Assembly: GCA_009760855.2 (NCBI GenBank)
Contig: WPIO01000151.1
Location: forward strand, 336,501 to 400,500
Source of the DNA: Cristatella mucedo
Lineage: Eukaryota > Bryozoa > Phylactolaemata > Cristatellidae
DNA: 64,000 nt
Direction: 5' to 3'
Shown in pieces: positions 3,598 to 60,438 of this stretch. The translations under genes were made by a program, and so were the position numbers. Below the pieces are notes generated by a model. The model ran no database searches and was not told the origin of the DNA. It worked only from the letters and a program-made list of their open reading frames with translations. How positions within the stretch are numbered: position 1 is the stretch's first letter; the number at the start of each line of letters is the position of its first letter.

Positions 3598-3732
3598 CTA
3601 GTTCGTGTGAAAGGACCATATGTCGTCTTCTACTTGCTGCTTCTGATATTTTTTGGTGCTTTCTACGTCATAAACCTCATTCTAGCTGTCGTACGAAATG
3701 CGTACGGAACAGAGGCTAGCGAGGAGGCTCGG
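3598..3732 (+). CDS. Channel exon: domain I S6 and start of I-II linker
   Basis: The 45 codons start right after a TTTGCAG acceptor and end at a GTAGGT donor, phase 0 on both sides. Residues 10-32 form the pore-lining S6 helix of domain I, with FGAFYVINLILAVV matching the sodium-channel pattern FLGSFYLxNLILAVV, including the conserved asparagine. The last residues (TEASEEAR) begin the acidic cytoplasmic linker. The usual VAMAYEE after S6 is here VRNAYGTEA, a modest divergence. The exon begins just behind the domain I selectivity filter, so that filter residue is upstream of the window. Calcium channels differ at this S6 (GxFFVLNLVLGV), so the Nav family is the better match. Confidence 0.9.
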
Positions 3733-14664: not shown

Positions 14665-14976
14665 GCATGCAGTGTATCACTTGGCCTACTGGTATTTTAC
14701 CCAATGTACCCGGAGGTCGATACTTCAAATCTGAGTTCTTCCGATATTTTAGAGGACGATCAGCTAATTGATAGAAACTGCACGGGCTGCGGGAAAATTG
14801 GTTTTAACGGTTATCATGACTGGATCAAACTGCAGAACATGGTTTTCAAGGTCGCAACCGACGGCTTGTTCGAGCTTTTTGTTACTCTGTGCATTGTTGC
14901 AAATACGGCAGTAATGGCCAGCGAATTCGATAGCATGACTGAATATCACCGCACTGCCAACGAGATCGCCAATCAG
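14665..14976 (+). CDS. Channel exon: domain II S1 (5' border uncertain)
   Basis: From about residue 50 the frame reads DWIKLQNMVFKVATDG and then the S1 helix LFELFVTLCIVANTAVMA. This closely matches the domain II start of sodium channels, where the pattern is PFVELxITLCIVxNTLFMAM. It ends in ANEIANQ at a GTAACC donor, phase 0, and joins directly to VFTWIFTVE in the next exon. The N-terminal half is an acidic, Ser-rich linker (SNLSSSDILEDDQ) with a CTGCGK motif. The start is unclear: acceptors are possible at 14664 (phase 0), 14672 (one base over) and 14715 (phase 0). The upstream stop at 14656 rules out a longer exon. Confidence 0.85.
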
Positions 14977-20970: not shown

Positions 20971-21174
20971 GTATTTACGTGGATTTTTACCGTGGAAGCT
21001 GTCCTGAAAATTATAGCTCTCAGCAAGGAATATTTTAAGAATACCTGGAACTTATTGGACCTGATCGTGGTCATATTCAGTCTGCTGGATTTCATATTCG
21101 CATATGCCCCTTTAAACCGTGCAAATAAGAAGAGCATGAAATCGGTGCTAAAAATTATGAAAATATTCAGGCTG
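20971..21174 (+). CDS. Channel exon: domain II S2, S3 and first half of S4
   Basis: The 68 codons are phase 0 on both sides, with a GTGAGT donor. It opens with [17 protein letters not shown], matching S2 of sodium channels with its conserved acidic residue (VFTGIFTAEMxLKIIA). [16 protein letters not shown] then fits S3 with the conserved aspartate. The exon ends inside the S4 voltage sensor at [11 protein letters not shown], where K/R residues occur every third position. The intron that splits S4 falls right after IFRL, and the following exon supplies LRIMKLAQSW. The S3-S4 loop ([12 protein letters not shown]) is unusually basic. Confidence 0.95.
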
Positions 21175-23670: not shown

Positions 23671-23780
<110 letters not shown>

Positions 23781-23865
23781 ATCATATCCTCAATGTGACG
23801 GGCACGTACGCATTTCAGGGTATCTTCGTCTGTAACCTGTGCGTGCGATTATATGTCCTCTTCAG

Positions 23866-24095
23866 TTGCGCATCATGAAACTGGCTCAGTCTTGGTCGAC
23901 GCTCCGCTCGTTGCTCGAGACCATCTTCTCAACGATTAGCGCCCTGGTCTACGTCGCCTTGGTTCTCTTCATCATCCTTTTCTTGTTCGCCGTGCTGGGC
24001 AGTCAGCTGCTCGGCGATGGCTACAACAACTTCGACTACATCCAAAGAGGACTAAATACGACATATGTTTACGACTATCATGGATCAATGCCTCG
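23866..24095 (+). CDS. Channel exon: domain II end of S4, S4-S5 linker, S5, pore turret
   Basis: The exon starts phase 0 after CTCTTCAG and ends with two bases of an arginine codon at a GTAAGC donor. LRIMKLAQSW completes the S4 sensor; sodium channels have LRVFKLAKSWP here. The linker STLRSLLETIFSTIS and the S5 helix LVYVALVLFIILFLFAVLGSQL follow. The extracellular turret is short and contains an N-glycosylation sequon (NTT at about residue 65). The conserved PRW that opens the pore helix is split across the next intron. Conservation of S4-S5 is high, so assignment to domain II is firm. Confidence 0.95.
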
Positions 24096-24207: not shown

Positions 24208-24367
24208 CTGGAATTTCATCGACTTCCCACATTCCCTATTGGTCGTCTTTCATGTTATTTGCATGGCTTGGATAGAATTGTGCTGGGACTGCATGAACGC
24301 CAATCCTGAATCTAAATACCTTTGCCTGATCATCTTCATCCTGACGCTGGTTTTGGGGCAATTTCTG
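24208..24367 (+). CDS. Channel exon: domain II pore loop and start of S6
   Basis: After a T-rich acceptor (TTTTTTTTAG) the exon completes the split arginine and reads WNFIDFPHSLLVVFHV, the domain II pore helix of the Nav family (RWNFTDFMHSFMIVFRV). The filter segment follows as ICMAWIELCWDC. Sodium channels, including Nav2 types, have LCGEWIExMWDC here, so the Gly-Glu pair is replaced by Met-Ala, although the flanking C, WIE and WDC are conserved. The exon ends within S6 (ILTLVLGQFL) at a GTGAGT donor, phase 0. The preceding intron, 112 bases, is the shortest in the gene. The substitution is visible in plain sequence and is not caused by a frameshift. Confidence 0.95.
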
Positions 24368-25684: not shown

Positions 25685-28600
25685 AATGTATGCATCTCCG
25701 TCTGTAAGTCTGCTAAGCCGTATGGACTATATGGATGTTACGCAGCGGAGTTTTGTAAAGGGCGCTCACATCCTAAAAGGCTTTCGGTAAACATTCGGTA
25801 GCCAACAGACTTAATCCCAAGCATCAAAGAGAAAGTGGGAAGCATATCAGAGTCAGAAGAGCAGTTGAGGTAGTGAGTAGCATGGAAGGAGCAGGTCAGG
25901 AACACCGGAAAGGATGAGTCATAGTCGTCTGCATTAGAGTAGCTGTCATTCCATAAGAATCGTGGAAGCGATTTCCTTAGTCTAGGATCTGCAAGCTAAA
26001 GCTTCTGTCTCCAACGGTCGTTAAGCGGAGGTATGGAACAGCTAACTTATTGTCCTTACGGGACCTGACGGCACGAAGAGGCTGAAACTAGTGCAGAAGT
26101 TTAGCTAGGACGGAGGATATGGAGGAGCCAAGCCATGGCGGGTCTTGCGGGTCAGCTAAGAACTTGGCTCGTTATCCGTTGATCAATCGTCAGCCATCCT
26201 AGCTCTTTTAGGAAAAAATCCACGGGTTCAAATCTTTGGGAATTGAAAACTAGCCTTGCAGCCTCATTCATAGCTATTTGCAGTGGTCTACTTGCTTTTA
26301 TTGGTAACCCAGCAAAAGGAAACTACAATAATCAAGCTGAGACAGAACTAAGGAGCTAGTCAAATCCTTTGCTAGCCTCTGTGAAAGACAGCTCATAATC
26401 TTAGACAGGGATCAGACTGTATGACAAGCTGTAGAAGCAGTCTTCCGAATGAAGCTTTTAAAATCTAGGCTGCTGTCAAAAATACACATACATTTCGAGC
26501 ATGTGGTAATGGTCGCACGACGGCATCACCTATTACAAGAGCGAAGTCTTTTAATATAGCCGCAGGCATATGGTGTCCTATGAGCGGCTATTCAGCTTAC
26601 GGTCATTTAGTTTCCAGAGGTTTTTCGACATCCTGGATCGAATTTCGGCAAGGCAACGGTTCAGTTTATTAGTTGCTCCATCTGATTCCGACTTTTGAAT
26701 GGCAAATACAGCTGGGTATTGTCAGCATAAAAGAGATATCCTATTCTGTGGCTCCTGATAACTTTTTCCAGAGGTTGATTATGAATGGAGAACAACACGG
26801 GACCGAGGACGGACCCTTGAGGGACTCGATAGTTGACCCGCCTCGAGCGGGAGACCTGAACCCCAAGCGACACTGATTGAACTCAATTATGCTAGTACGA
26901 TTTAAACCACGCCAGTGCTTTGTACGCGAGGCCGATCGTTGTTCTCAATCGTTATAGTAGGACACTGTGGTCAACGGTTTTAAAGGTAGCCGGTAGATCT
27001 AGCAGTGTTGTGGCAGTGACATTCGTGCAATCGTTGTGGCATAGGATGTCATTGGTTACACGGAGGAGAGCAGTTTCAGTGGAGTGCTGCCTCTTGGACT
27101 GCGATCAAAGTTTTTCTGACATTTTATTCTTTTCAATGTGTGCAACCAGCTGCTCAGTAGCAATTTCTTTAAGAATCTTAGACACGAAAAGAAGAAGGGA
27201 AACTGGGAGATAGTTTGCAAGGACTTGTATTTTTAATCCACGCTATTTGAATTATTGGTTCTAACGATTGCCAATTTGAAGAACTTGGATACAACGTTTT
27301 CCAAAGAAGCTCTAAAAATCTTGGTTATGGCATGGATAAGTTGGTCTGACAGTGAAGACCACAGAAATGATGGTATAGAGTCTTCAGGAGACGAGTTCTT
27401 TTTACAAGACCTAATTAAGGTAGACACATTGCATGCAGAAACCTCGAAAAACATTTAAGGAGGATCGCAGGCTGTGTTTCCACAATTGCTTTACATGGAA
27501 GGGGCTTTATGGTGGCAAAAATGGGCACAATAATTTCAGTAAAGAAAGCTGAAAAATATTCTGCTGAACCATGATTATACGGGAGTTGAACCTCTAAGCC
27601 TTGGCCAGTCAATTGTTTACTGTCTTATATATCTGTTTTGGGTCCGACTGGCAGGTATTCAATTTTAGAGTGATAAAGTCTTGGATTTGTTAAGCTTCCG
27701 GTTGTAAACTCGAAGGAAGTCTTTGAAATTGACTAGATCTGCATCCGACCCTTATTTCTTAAAACAACGTTCAAGCCTGAGCTTAGCACAGTCCATGTTT
27801 TGAAGTTTGCTTCGTAAATTGAAAGGAATCTCTGCGATAGTACACGGACAGAACGAGCCGGAGAATGCTTGTCAAGAGTCCTCCTAAGTGCCACGTTCAC
27901 TGCATCATTGAGAATTTCGAGGCTGTAGGTCGAGCCTGGTTGCAAAGCAAGAAGACCTGCATCACAAACGGATTTCAAAAATATGTCTACGTGAATGCTT
28001 TTTAAGCTGCATCGCTGGACGAATTCGACATTACTCTGTCCAAACAAGAGAGCGGGAACAGTAAACGAGACCGAACGATGATCCGAGAGGGTCAAGTGAC
28101 ATACCTTACGGTCAGTGGGGAAGACATCCTTACTGAGCACGAGATCTAGAATGTGGCCACCAACATGGGTGGTGTAATTAACTTAATGAATCAAACCAAA
28201 ATTCTCCAAGCATTCAAGAAATGAGCATACCTGGCTGTTGACAGGATTGTCAACGTGAATACTGAAATTTTTAGCGATCAGTAATGGCCTGTCACACACA
28301 AGTGTTTTAGCGAGGAACTCCGAAAACTTCTCTATAAACAAGTTTAGACAGCCAGAAGGTGGTCGGTATATCACAGCACTGAGAGGCATTGTCTTAGATA
28401 AGGACCTGATTGCAACTGATTCAAATGATTGCAAAAAGCTGCACATCTTGTAGCTAAACGATTCACTCACAACCATTGCGTTCCGTCTTTAGCCTTGTCA
28501 GAAGGCGTAGACTGATAAAATGAAAACCCAGTTTAAGTAATCCCAGCTATAAAACTACTGGACCAATGGGTCATATGAGTTTCAGCAAGCTGAAATTCAT

Positions 28601-29143
28601 CTAGCTTCTCCTGGACCACCTGATCGCTGATAAGTAACCGCTTGGTTTTAGCGAGCGGGCATTTATTATGCGGAATTTAAGAGACTCCCATAACTGAGCG
28701 CCGCCAATGAAGTGGCTTGCTTTCAAGTTGACGTGTAGTCGGCCTGGCAATTGCAGGCCCTTCAAATTTGAATTGAACCTTAGTAAAGGCCGCCGTTCGA
28801 CGTTTCACAAAATGCTGAGGCACGACAGGTGAGCTGCTACCGCAAAGAGTGCTATTCAGTGCTTTTAACTTACGGGTCTTGGGTTTGATAGTCGACCTGT
28901 TGATAGGGCGAACGCGTGATTCAGAGAGGTTCTCACTGACCTGCCTATAAAAGCCCGCCGGTAGGTATCGACTAATGGCGACATTTCTCCTCATGCTAAG
29001 CAGGTCCTGTTTTCTGTAGTACCTACGAGAACAGTTCATAAATAGAAACAGCGAAGATAGAAGCAAAATATTCGAAGGTAGCACGGAGAAATCAGGTAAA
29101 GGTCCACACCAAGCTAGGAGTCGCCCGAGGCCACTCTCTAGTT
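25685..29143 (-). mobile_element. LINE-B, near full length, antisense, inactive
   Basis: Read on the minus strand, the 5' end is near 29143 (TAGAGAGTGGCCTCGGGCGA). The first reading frame (28677-29150) has no known domain. An AP-type endonuclease follows (about 28150-28640), with IYRPPSG and a CDRPLLIAKNFSIHVDNP block that corresponds to the GDFN catalytic region but has lost the Gly-Asp (GD). Then comes a reverse transcriptase with YRVPQGSVLGPVLFS and FYADNTQLYL (26661-26873). The 3' end at 25685-25720 carries ACTTACAGACGGAGAT, without clear ACATT units. Stops and frameshifts break it throughout. At about 3.4 kb it is the most complete element in the window. Confidence 0.85.
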
Positions 29144-29289
29144 CGTGCAAGGAAGACTTTTGTTGGGAAAAAGCCCATAAACTGTAGCGATCCAGCTACG
29201 ATGCATGCCTTCATATGATTAAGTTGCAGGTATCTCGTGTAATACTACAAAACCATTGACGACTAAAACTAACGATTAGCTACAAAAGT
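29144..29289. other. Spacer between two LINE-B copies
   Basis: Short unassigned sequence, AT-rich, between the 5' end of one LINE-B copy and the internal break of the next. Confidence 0.5.
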
Positions 29290-30632
29290 TTTAAAAAAAT
29301 AAGTTACTTCAAAAAAAAGAAGACCCCGATTTCTTGAAACGATGTTCCAGCCTGCGCTTAACACGGCGCATCTTAAGGAGTTTTCTTGTAAATTGAAAGC
29401 AATCTCGACGACTTTGAACACGGATAGAGCGAACGGGAGCATGCTTGTCAAGAGCACTCCTGAGTGTCATGTTCATCGCATCAGTGAGGGTATCGAGGCT
29501 GCCGGTCGAGTCTGAATGCAGATCAAGAAGGCCTGCATGACAAACAGATTTCAAAAACTTGTCAATGTCAATGCTTTGTAAGTTACGTCGTTTGGCAAAT
29601 TCGACATTGCCCTGCACGTACGAGGGAGCAGGAACAGTAAACGAGACCGAACAATGATCTGAGATGGTCAGTGGTGAGGACATCCTTAGTGATCACGAGA
29701 TCTAGAATGTGGCCACCGACGTGGGTGCTATGATTAACGTGTTGGGCCAAACCAAAATTCTCCAGTCAGTCATGAAATGAGGGGACCTGGCTGTTGCTAG
29801 GGTTTTCAACGTTGATATTGAAGTGTCCTACAATCAGTAACGGCCTGTCACACACAAATATTTGAGCGAGGAACTCTGAAAACTTCTCTATAAACAAGTT
29901 TAGACAGCCAGAAGGAGGCTGGTATATCACAACAGTGAGAGGCATTATCATTGATGAAGACCTGATAGCAACCGATTAAAACGATGACCCATGCGAGAAA
30001 CTGCACATTTAATAGCCAAGCGATTCGCGAACAGCAATTGCAACCCGCCACTAACCTTGTCAGAACGCATGGACTGATAGAGTGAGAACCCGGGTGGGGT
30101 GGTCTCGGAATCACAGCTACTGGAACAAGGCGTCATCCAGGTTTCGGTAAGCAGAAATGCATCTAGCTTTTCCAGGACCACCTGATCGCCGATAAGTATA
30201 CCCTTGGTTTTTAGCGAGCGGACATTTAGTAGGTGGAATTTAGCAGGCTGTCCAACAACTGGGCGACTGGGATGAAGTGGCTTGTTCGAATTTGAATTGG
30301 ACCTTGGTAACGGCCGTAGGACGACGTTTGGCAACGTGCTGGGCTACGGCGGGTGGGCTACTACCGAAACAAGTACTATTCAGCGCTTTAAACTTACGAG
30401 TCGTAGGTTTGATAGCCGAGCTGTTGATAGGGCGAACGCAGGATGCCGGAAGGTTCTCACTGACCCGCCGGTAGGCGACATCGCATCTTATGCTAAGCAA
30501 GTCCTGTTTTGTGTAGCATATCCAAGGACAGCTCAAAAGTAGTTACAGCGAAGATAGCAGCGGAATACCCGAAGGTATTGAGAAATCAAGTAAAGGTCCA
30601 CACCAGGCTAGGAGTCGCCCGAGGCCGCTCTT
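29290..30632 (-). mobile_element. LINE-B 5' half, antisense, 3'-truncated
   Basis: It is the same element as the neighbour at 25685-29143. The minus strand begins near 30632 at the same 5' border (CTAAAGAGCGGCCTCGGGCG). The first frame follows (30240-30536), then the endonuclease with LLNVRSLKTKG, LLTETWMTP, VIYQPPSG and VGHFNINVENP; this copy keeps more of the catalytic region than its neighbour. The copy stops in the middle of the element. Losing the 3' rather than the 5' part is atypical for LINE insertion and implies a later deletion or rearrangement. Confidence 0.8.
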
Positions 30633-30644
30633 TAGCGCTAGGAG

Positions 30645-30895
30645 GGCCGCATTTCGTTGGCCCTGTGATTCGTTCTTCAAGTGCTTATGCGTGCCGACTT
30701 CGTGCATGATGCCACTAGCCACACTTGTATGCTGACCCCGTGCATGTCACCCCTAACCATGTTATTCATGTCTTTAATCAAGAATGATACCACCCACTAT
30801 TCGATCATGCTTCCTTTGCAGCAAATGTAAAGCATCTAGAAAAAGATTGAGTTCTCTGAGGGCGTTTTATCAAGTGTATTAGTACTATTATATTT
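30645..30895 (+). mobile_element. LINE-A 3' UTR fragment
   Basis: It starts near the GCATTT..CCCTGTGATTCG border and runs through TGCTGACCCCGTGCATGTC to the terminal stem-loop and TATTAGTACTATTATATT tail. Confidence 0.85.
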
Positions 30896-32511: not shown

Positions 32512-32860
32512 ATGCTCAACCTTTTCCTTGCATCTCTTCTGGATGCATTCAGCGGTGACAATGTAAAGAAAGAGAAAACGGTAAAACAGGAAAGCAAACT
32601 AAAGAAGAGCTTGATGCGCATTAAGCACTGCTTCAAAAAATCCTCCGGTGCATCATCAAAGAGATCTATTACCCCTGCAAGCTTCTTCAGCGATCGGAAT
32701 TCTATTGCTGCTAGCAAGATGACCATGAGGCGACCATCTTTAATCAAAGTTGAAGGAGCGCAGGTGGTTAACGAGAGTCATGTGTCGATGAAAAGTGGAC
32801 TGCCGCTAGATGCATCGCTTGTCCTTCAAGCCAAGAGTCAGGCATCCATGAGGAGTTCAG
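32512..32860 (+). CDS. Channel exon: domain II S6 end and II-III linker start
   Basis: It starts phase 0 after CCGTTGTAG. MLNLFLASLLDAF completes S6; sodium channels have VLNLFLALLLSNF, so the helix and its conserved asparagine are kept. A strongly basic cytoplasmic segment follows (KKEKTVKQESKLKKSLMRIKHCFKK, given here only as a position: residues 19-45), then Ser-rich sequence with MRRPSLIK, a good basophilic-kinase site (RRPS) by pattern. It ends with one spare base at a GTGCGT donor, which completes an alanine codon with the next exon. Kinase regulation is inference. An 8.1 kb intron full of LINE copies separates it from the pore exon. Confidence 0.92.
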
Positions 32861-43321: not shown

Positions 43322-43625
43322 CTGCACATGTTGCAATACTGTGTGCACTACAAGATGGACTGATTTCCGACAGGTGTGCCTTAAGATCTGCACTAATTCC
43401 ATTTTTGAATGGTTTATCATGGTGATTATCATACTAAGTAGTCTTACGCTAGCCCTGGAGGATGTGTACCTAGAGCAAACACCAGTATTGGAAACCATTC
43501 TGACTAATACCAACTTCGTCTTCACAGCAATCTTCATAATTGAGATGACGGTCAAGTTGTTTGGGCTGGGATTCCAAAAATACTTGACATCTGGCTGGAG
43601 CTTACTGGATGGGGCGATAGTCACG
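43322..43625 (+). CDS. Channel exon: domain III S1, S2 and start of S3
   Basis: The first base completes a serine codon; 101 codons follow and end phase 0 at GTAAGT. It opens with a cysteine-rich stretch (CTCCNTVC), then QVCLKICTNSIFEWFI leads into S1 (MVIIILSSLTLALEDVYLE). Sodium channels have FxxFIVFMILLSSGALAFEDIY here. S2 is NFVFTAIFIIEMTVKLFGLG with the conserved acidic residue, and S3 begins WSLLDGAIVT. The FED/LED motif at the end of S1 is typical of domain III of Nav. Order and spacing with the next exon (S3-S4) are exact. Confidence 0.95.
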
Positions 43626-44961: not shown

Positions 44962-44982
44962 TGCCTCTACTCTCACTCTCAC

Positions 44983-45036
<54 letters not shown>

Positions 45037-45128
45037 TCTCTCTCTCTCTCTCCATCTCACTCTCTTTCTATCTCACTATCTTTCTATCTCTCTCTCTATC
45101 TCTTTCTATCGCTCTCTATATCCCTCTC
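44962..45128 (+). repeat. (TC)n-rich microsatellite
   Basis: A long polypyrimidine array with CTAT interruptions ends about 165 bases upstream of the S4 exon acceptor. It is on the coding strand, so it resembles an extended pyrimidine tract. Confidence 0.95.
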
Positions 45129-45295
45129 TTGGTTTCTCTTAGCTCTTAGCTCTTGCTCACGGATTGAAATTCTAGACACAGATAAAAGTTTGACCGTTGA
45201 AGCCATGCTCCATTCTTAAGCGTCAATCAGCAGCCGTGATACATACCACTTGTCTGCGATTATAGCAAGAGCTTGTTTCGCTGGTTTCTTTTCAG

Positions 45296-45421
45296 ATATC
45301 CATTGTTGACATAATTATGAGTTTAATCCCAAACCTGAGCAAACTCACATTTCTCAAAGCCCTGAGGACGTTTAGAGCCCTTCGTCCTCTTCGTGCTGTC
45401 TCTCGATGGGAAGGTATGAAG
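45296..45421 (+). CDS. Channel exon: domain III S3 end and S4 voltage sensor
   Basis: The 42 codons are phase 0 on both sides, between TTCTTTTCAG and GTAAGG. ISIVDIIMSLIPNL finishes S3 and the loop. [21 protein letters not shown] is the S4 sensor and S4-S5 start, with positive residues at every third place. It matches the canonical [20 protein letters not shown] nearly residue for residue. The PLRA..SR..GM signature is specific to domain III of the Nav family. The minus-strand frames over it are shadows. Confidence 0.97.
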
Positions 45422-50230: not shown

Positions 50231-50602
50231 ATCGTGGTGAACTCTCTTCTGTTTGCGATGCCCGCAATCTTCAATGTGCTGCTTGTGTGTATGTTATTTG
50301 GGTTGATATTCTCCATCTTGGGAGTGCAGCTCTTTGCCGGGAAATATTACGCCTGCTACGACCCAGAAAACGACCCTTCGTCACCGATCGTCAATGACCG
50401 TTATTGGTTACCGTTATATAATATGTCGGGTCATTATACGAACGTCACCGACATAATATCGTGCTTGAATCAGGACTACACGTGGAGAAATAGACTGGTA
50501 AACTTTGACAACGTGATTAACGGATACATCGCCCTCTACCAATTGGTTACTTTCGAGGGCTGGATGGAGCTTATGCAGTCTTCAGTCGACAGCAAGGACG
50601 AG
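50231..50602 (+). CDS. Channel exon: domain III S4-S5 linker, S5, turret and pore loop
   Basis: The 124 codons are phase 0 on both sides, between CTTCGTTGTAG and GTAACT. IVVNSLLFAMPAIFNVLLV is the S4-S5 linker and start of S5, and LIFSILGVQLFAGKYYAC ends S5. Sodium channels have [20 protein letters not shown] and IMGVNLFAGKF. The turret carries two glycosylation sequons (NMS, NVT) and paired cysteines. The pore helix NFDNVINGYIALYQLVTFEG places glutamate where Nav1 has lysine (TFKGW). Nav2-type invertebrate channels and calcium channels carry glutamate here, so domain III suggests a Nav2-like or calcium-permeable pore. The exon ends DSKDE and joins exactly to the S6 exon. Confidence 0.97.
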
Positions 50603-60300: not shown

Positions 60301-60438
60301 ATTGGACTGCAGCCGACACCGGAGAACAACCTAAGTTACTATGCTTTCATCGTGGTCTTTATATTTATTGGGTCATTTTTCTCACTGAATCTGTTCATTG
60401 GTGTCATTATCGACAACTTCAACATGCTAAAAAAGCAG
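60301..60438 (+). CDS. Channel exon: domain III S6
   Basis: The 46 codons are phase 0 on both sides, between TTGCTTTTCTAG and GTGCGT. After [16 protein letters not shown] comes the S6 helix [20 protein letters not shown], then [10 protein letters not shown]. Sodium channels have [20 protein letters not shown] and FNxQKKK, one of the most conserved parts of the family. The next exon should carry the III-IV linker with the inactivation gate (IFM or MFMT motif), but no such exon appears in the remaining 3.5 kb. The intron therefore continues past the window. Confidence 0.97.

Follow-up and report, generated by a model that had tools for sequence, protein, structure and literature searches.

The four-domain cation channels of animals are described as using, with hardly an exception, a small set of selectivity rings (PMC3557258, PMC4436565, PMC10120453, PMC5095125). 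For Nav channels the first two ring positions are stated to be constant, with Asp followed by Glu or, in cnidarians, by Lys (PMC3557258, PMC6259924). Given that cnidarian sodium channels carry DKEA and the NALCN channels of several phyla EKEE (PMC6259924, PMC3557258), the view taken in a first-pass annotation of the DNA described here, that domain II is always acidic in known channels, does not hold. Nav channels without the Lys (DEEA) are reported not to be sodium-selective (PMC6259924) and Nav2 is called calcium-selective in other papers (PMC4436565, PMC5095125); the Nav2 channels of an oyster and a copepod are DEEA (PMC5295241, PMC3929608). In Nav channels Trp is stated to follow directly after the domain II filter residue, with no beacon Asp (PMC10120453, PMC6259924), and the domain II outer-ring Glu (Na beacon) is stated to be always present (PMC6259924), while two domain III turret cysteines are given as common to all 4x6TM channels (PMC4436565).

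The consequences of removing the domain II glutamate have been described for E755A in Nav1.4, a single change in a DEKA channel. Conductance was lowered by 30% and in simulation water took the place of the side chain (PMC4537306), and tetrodotoxin affinity was 6412-fold lower, which was the costliest of the three inner-ring changes listed, K1237A giving a 641-fold loss of block (PMC2852835). In Nav1.5, Arg893 of the domain II pore helix is said to bond Glu898 and Glu901 (PMC12960491; also PMC8600069), a model in PMC11083067 did not show the Glu898 bond in the native channel, and R893H alone left no detectable current (PMC12960491). In NALCN the domain II pore exon is duplicated in several phyla (exons 15a/15b; PMC3557258). 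An animal Nav channel with a neutral domain II residue is not listed in the excerpts covered on channel filters, and open-access PMC yielded no paper in which a sodium-channel filter reads DAEA or DSEA (two papers that came up for DSEA concern drug repurposing, judged by title and abstract), although an earlier description elsewhere is possible.

The window (the whole stretch of 64,000 nucleotides that was analysed, C57:336501-400500 of a host assembly of 572 Mb in 688 contigs) holds on its plus strand the middle of one four-domain cation-channel gene, which extends from domain I S6 to domain III S6 over 57 kb. The following features of this gene were located (window positions):

3598..3732, + strand: exon, domain I S6 (LVRVKGPYVVFYLLLLIFFGAFYVINLILAVV...), from tblastn with Nav domain I and consensus splice sites
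14764..14976, + strand: exon, domain II S1, 5' boundary uncertain (tblastn; donor CAG/GTAACC)
20971..21174, + strand: exon, domain II S2-S4 with gating charges (tblastn; acceptor TTTGTAG/GTA, donor CTG/GTGAGT)
23866..24095, + strand: exon, domain II S4-S5 and start of the pore loop (tblastn; acceptor CTCTTCAG/TTG, donor TCG/GTAAGC)
24208..24367, + strand: exon, domain II pore helices and filter, the subject of this report, 160 nt (profile match, splice sites)
24260..24271, + strand: CMAW filter, codons TGC ATG GCT TGG, with Ala at the high-field-strength position of domain II
32512..32860, + strand: exon, domain II S6 and start of the II-III linker (acceptor GTTGTAG/ATG, donor CAG/GTGCGT)
43322..43625, + strand: exon, domain III S1-S3, 5' boundary predicted (tblastn; acceptor picked by pyrimidine tract, donor ACG/GTAAGT)
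45296..45421, + strand: exon, domain III S4 (tblastn, splice sites)
50231..50602, + strand: exon, domain III S5, turret and pore, with two turret cysteines
50552..50563, + strand: FEGW, with Glu at the domain III filter position (position counted by hand)
60301..60438, + strand: exon, domain III S6 (tblastn, splice sites)

Splice sites were canonical in the eight window exons with both ends resolved, and four exons of domain II and three of domain III could be joined and read in frame. The frame is intact across the filter site, as had been claimed from the letters alone. Both pores (domains II and III) were matched by Pfam Ion_trans. The window is part of an animal chromosome, with a GC content of 43%, no N bases, long introns, dinucleotide repeats and reverse-transcriptase-like fragments (the latter judged by eye), and Rfam gave no match in it at gathering scores. 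Long dinucleotide-type repeats lie at 23671-23781, ending about 85 bases before the domain II S5 exon, and at 44965-45129, ending about 165 bases before the domain III S4 exon.

The domain II filter of the window gene reads Cys-Met-Ala-Trp, as the first-pass annotation had reported, in place of the Cys-Gly-Glu-Trp of known sodium channels. The pore exon was the sole match above the inclusion threshold among 2874 six-frame window fragments (E=1e-15) for a profile built solely from the domain II pores of three other Nav channels, and its best match among solved structures was domain II of Nav1.5 (E=2.7e-9). It is bordered by the acceptor TTTTTTAG/C and the donor CTG/GTGAGT, and at its junction with the preceding exon (23866-24095) the split codon CG/C gives Arg, reading ...MPR/WNFIDFPHSLLVVFHVICMAWIELCWDCM. 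The flanks had been called conserved, which applies with a restriction: of 31 columns invariant in the three reference pores the window gene keeps 17 and changes 14, including the two filter columns. Any Gly-Glu codon pair differs from ATG GCT in at least 4 of the 6 bases, and a single base-call error is therefore no explanation. The intron 3' of the pore exon is about 8 kb long. Within it, at 27842-30660, a number of blocks are repeated some 1.5 kb downstream with 74-83% likeness, as if a stretch of about 1.3 kb had been duplicated; the pore exon itself is not among these direct repeats.

When the whole host assembly was searched, the pore exon was found in seven places, one per gene (8 of 8 candidates scored), with four on C57 and one each on C244, C210 and C332. 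The four genes on C57, g1 (114.5 kb), g2 (218.7 kb), g3 (the window gene) and g4 (491.7 kb), are all on the plus strand, and the window gene is thus the third of four tandem four-domain Nav-type genes. Its domain II S1 exon is matched by g1 and g2 across the same 71 residues. The filters of g1 to g4 are, in that order, TMDH, TMDH, TMDR and TMDH in domain I, CGSW, CMSW, CMAW and CMSW in domain II, FEGW throughout in domain III (the glutamate that had been assigned to this domain in the window gene is indeed there) and VAGW, LAGW, VAGW and VAGW in domain IV. With Asp in domain I, Glu in domain III and Ala in domain IV of all four genes, the selectivity rings are DSEA, DSEA, DAEA (window gene) and DSEA, and the domain II residue is small and neutral in every one. 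The Gly that precedes it is Met in g2-g4.

In domain I of the array, Met stands before and His or Arg after the Asp, and the corresponding residues in the host's Nav1 genes read TQDF and NQDY; the TMDR of the window gene places the positive charge of an Arg beside the filter. Between g2 and g3 a decayed fifth domain IV copy with four stops was seen at C57:302221-302653, which indicates that the array has lost members too.

C210 and C244 each carry a separate DEKA Nav1 gene with CGEWIE in domain II; multiple Nav1 genes are reported from a copepod (PMC3929608). The gene on C332 (matches near 13284447, 13262953 and 13244657) is a divergent Nav-like gene on a very long branch, with LGEYTD in domain II and TTGEW in domain IV, and judging from these two domains, from which its filter is known, it is not a plain DEEA gene. 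Matches on C343, C550 and C77 were Cav-like by eye only. The best candidates scored with exons of all four pore loops, in an assembly that may be incomplete, included neither a further intact Nav gene nor one with a DEEA (Nav2) ring. With no DEEA gene among them, the array probably occupies the place of Nav2 in this genome.

Judged by sequence, the window gene classes as a Nav-type four-domain channel, nearest to Nav among the solved four-domain channels. The spliced domain II matched Nav1.5 with E=3.9e-67 and the best Cav with 9.3e-56, and the domain III exon matched Nav1.6 with 7e-29, Cav1.2 with 6e-28 (a small margin over Cav) and NALCN with 4.7e-13 at best. In all four array genes the domain II filter is shortened, with Trp directly after the filter residue and without the beacon Asp, the domain II outer-ring Glu (WIE) is kept, and two domain III turret cysteines are present. 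The array genes were also compared with each named class. A plain Nav2 (DEEA) has Glu in the domain II filter, where the array has S, S, A and S. They are not Nav1 (DEKA), as domain III has no Lys (Glu in 4/4) and there is no IFM-type latch in the window gene or g1, and they are not a cnidarian DKEA channel, as Ala or Ser is found in place of Lys in the domain II filter. Asp in domain I and Ala in domain IV set them apart from NALCN with its EEEE, EKEE or EEKE ring. For Cav1/Cav2 an Asp after the domain II filter residue (TGEDW) is the rule given in PMC4436565, and in the array Trp follows directly.

The voltage sensors that were read are charged, and the domain IV S4 arginines are retained in the array. 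At the place of the latch in the III-IV linker, ALL (ALLT) was found in the window gene (C57:402359-402463) and TLL (TLLT) in g1 (C57:149793-149897) instead of IFM, and fast inactivation has probably been lost in these two channels. The outer ring of the array is not whole, with Gln in domain III of g1 and Asn in domain IV of all four genes. The same Asn is present in the host's own Nav1 genes, and human and fly Nav1 have Asp at this position. In the domain II loop, a Met ahead of the filter residue is also found in domain I of Cav channels (TMEGW) and an Ala at the filter residue in domain IV of Nav channels (SAGW); since each occurs in other domains of the superfamily, the Met-Ala loop can probably fold. 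In the pore helix of domain II, g1 has Arg at the counterpart of Arg893, where g2, g3 and g4 have His. A second pair, Arg878-Asp1430 in Nav1.5 numbers (stated in PMC12960491), is present in the window gene (positions counted by hand), and in g1 both partners are lost together, the spliced codon being Pro and the Asp gone (by eye).

All 24 array exon sequences compared were open (seven exons in g1, g2 and g3, three of which also in g4). The NG86 dN/dS values were 0.172 for g2-g3 (657 codons, seven exons), 0.149 for g2-g4 (400 codons, three exons) and 0.195 for g3-g4 (402 codons, three exons), which bears out the earlier statement that the locus is not decaying, here among the three paralogues g2, g3 and g4. 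These values are based on five of the ten window channel exons plus two exons outside the window, three of these seven being used wherever g4 was involved, and given that the five other window exons (domain II S2-S4 and S6; domain III S1-S3, S4 and S6, all matched in g1) were left out, gene-wide values may be higher. Between g1 and the other three genes synonymous sites were saturated (pS 0.77-0.79, pN 0.21-0.23). Low dN/dS together with this saturation makes the neutral domain II filter look ancient and maintained by purifying selection. The pN of the domain II pore exon was the lowest of seven exons for g2-g3 (0.091) and the lowest of three for g2-g4 (0.078), and it was the highest of three for g3-g4 (0.067; the others 0.053 and 0.017). 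Between the window gene and g4, dS rose from 0.09 for domain IV to 0.30 for the pore of domain III and 0.42 for that of domain II, a gradient that would fit gene conversion at the 3' end.

In a small tree of the domain II pore and domain IV, with the host's own genes and Nav1 pieces as outside references, the array was placed apart from all other sequences with a support of 100, and within it g2+g3+g4 had 89 and g3+g4 85. The four sequences suggest an order in which CGEW changed to CGSW, then to CMSW together with the pore-helix change from Arg to His, and last, in the window gene, to CMAW by a change from Ser to Ala; the path from Glu to Ser may also have led through Ala.

Taken together, an explanation that we consider fairly probable is that of a four-gene Nav2-like array with a D-(S/A)-E-A ring, in which an old neutral domain II residue is held by purifying selection in a voltage-gated channel of weak selectivity. 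In the simplest case the domain II glutamate would have given way to a small neutral residue ahead of the array's expansion, and the position would have stayed neutral under purifying selection since then. The product would most likely be a voltage-gated, weakly selective cation channel, in which Asp of domain I and Glu of domain III would form two carboxylates opposed across the filter, water would occupy the place of the lost domain II side chain and the domain II outer-ring Glu would continue to draw cations in. Lacking the IFM latch, the channel would inactivate slowly or not at all, and tetrodotoxin and other site-1 toxins would block it weakly. The loss of sodium selectivity that had been suggested as possible does not follow from the domain II change, since E755A is said to cost Nav1.4 only 30% of its conductance (PMC4537306) and the domain III Glu already groups the channel with the Nav2 type. 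A bolder version, in which a separate two-carboxylate channel class took the Nav2 place in this lineage and multiplied, being voltage-gated, non-inactivating and Na/K-permeable with a filter outside the standard Nav, Cav and NALCN sets, is conceivable and is put forward tentatively.

With His as the counterpart of Arg893 in g2-g4, the array pore may be non-conducting. The Nav1.5 result might not carry over to the array, given that Glu898 is still present in R893H Nav1.5; its counterpart is also lost in the array, which might either tolerate losing it together with Arg or have a silent pore. A channel with hardly any conduction might act as a voltage sensor or scaffold and have lost the Arg-Glu-Glu cluster once ion flow was no longer needed. 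The substitution that abolishes the Nav1.5 current (PMC12960491) is indeed present in three of the four array copies and the inactivation latch is gone too in both copies read, but a relaxation of the domain II pore exon is not evident (with pN highest there only in g3-g4), none of the four genes has lost the outer-ring Glu of domain II, the Asp of domain I or the Glu of domain III, and g1 retains the pore-helix arginine, and we regard this explanation as unlikely. It is improbable that the domain II glutamate was lost through selection for resistance to site-1 toxins (tetrodotoxin, saxitoxin). The 6412-fold loss of block in E755A (PMC2852835) would suit such a cause, whereas CGEWIE is retained in both of the host's DEKA Nav1 genes, which would be the normal targets, and with Glu and no Lys in domain III the array channels would already bind weakly, as the 641-fold effect of K1237A indicates (PMC2852835).

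An alternative Glu-bearing domain II pore exon might be spliced in, which would make the CMAW exon one form only, and a search for such an exon matters since NALCN splices alternative domain II pore exons in several phyla (PMC3557258). The 8 kb intron would give room for it, but no second copy of the exon, with CGEW or otherwise, was found in the window by blast or by the profile at maximum sensitivity in six frames, none was found in C57 20-220 kb (which contains the whole of g1 and g2 to just past its pore exon, with 5 kb of N included), and the seven genomic matches among the candidates scored fall one per gene, which makes this possibility very improbable. An early pseudogene or an assembly error is hardly credible. 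Copies in this array do die, as the decayed domain IV copy illustrates, but all 24 array exon sequences that were compared are open and dN/dS is 0.15-0.20, the exons of the window gene have canonical splice sites, and four copies share the neutral state of domain II. We conclude that the filter is a real variant of a presumed Nav2-like channel, kept by selection and departing from the stated ring rule.

A four-gene family with a neutral second position under purifying selection breaks the stated Nav filter rule. The alanine and serine versions side by side constitute a natural experiment on the minimum number of carboxylates of a Nav pore, and the array also bears on a possible joint evolution of arginine and glutamate in domain II.

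Several described channels resemble the array in part. Single-protein queries, which reach close relatives only, gave 5 pattern matches in viral and 69 in prokaryote collections, and none was confirmed as a relative. The four-domain channels of oomycetes (A/G/K/E and S/S/K/E) have a neutral domain II residue, Gly or Ser, but they lie outside the animal Nav channels and their domain III residue is Lys (PMC5824947). Natural non-standard Nav-type filters are found in aphids (DENS), in human Nax (DENA; PMC4332693) and in Ciona CiNav1b (DETE; PMC8192821), but in the excerpts covered these keep the domain II Glu, which is the residue lost in the array. In the cnidarian Nav2.5 (DKEA), as in the array, domain II departs from Glu while domain III retains it, but the cnidarian residue is Lys and that of the array a neutral Ser or Ala; the present genome moreover has DEKA Nav1 genes and a mitochondrial code that is not cnidarian-like, which makes a cnidarian channel very improbable here. 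The codon usage of its mitochondrial contig C688, read against COI (AGA/AGG as Ser 3/5, ATA as Met 8/8, AAA as Lys 1/1, TGA as Trp 8/9), fits best with the invertebrate code and argues, in part from few codons, against a cnidarian, echinoderm, hemichordate, tunicate or vertebrate host. A lancelet would also be compatible, but given the DEKA Nav1 genes the host is most likely a protostome. The Nav2 channels (BSC1/DSC1 type, DEEA) share with the array the four-domain Nav build, Asp in domain I, Glu in domain III, Ala in domain IV, the lack of a lysine, the domain II outer-ring Glu and the Trp directly after the domain II filter residue, whereas the array differs from them in having Ser or Ala for the domain II Glu, in its tandem arrangement of four genes and in the change of the pore-helix Arg to His in three of the four.
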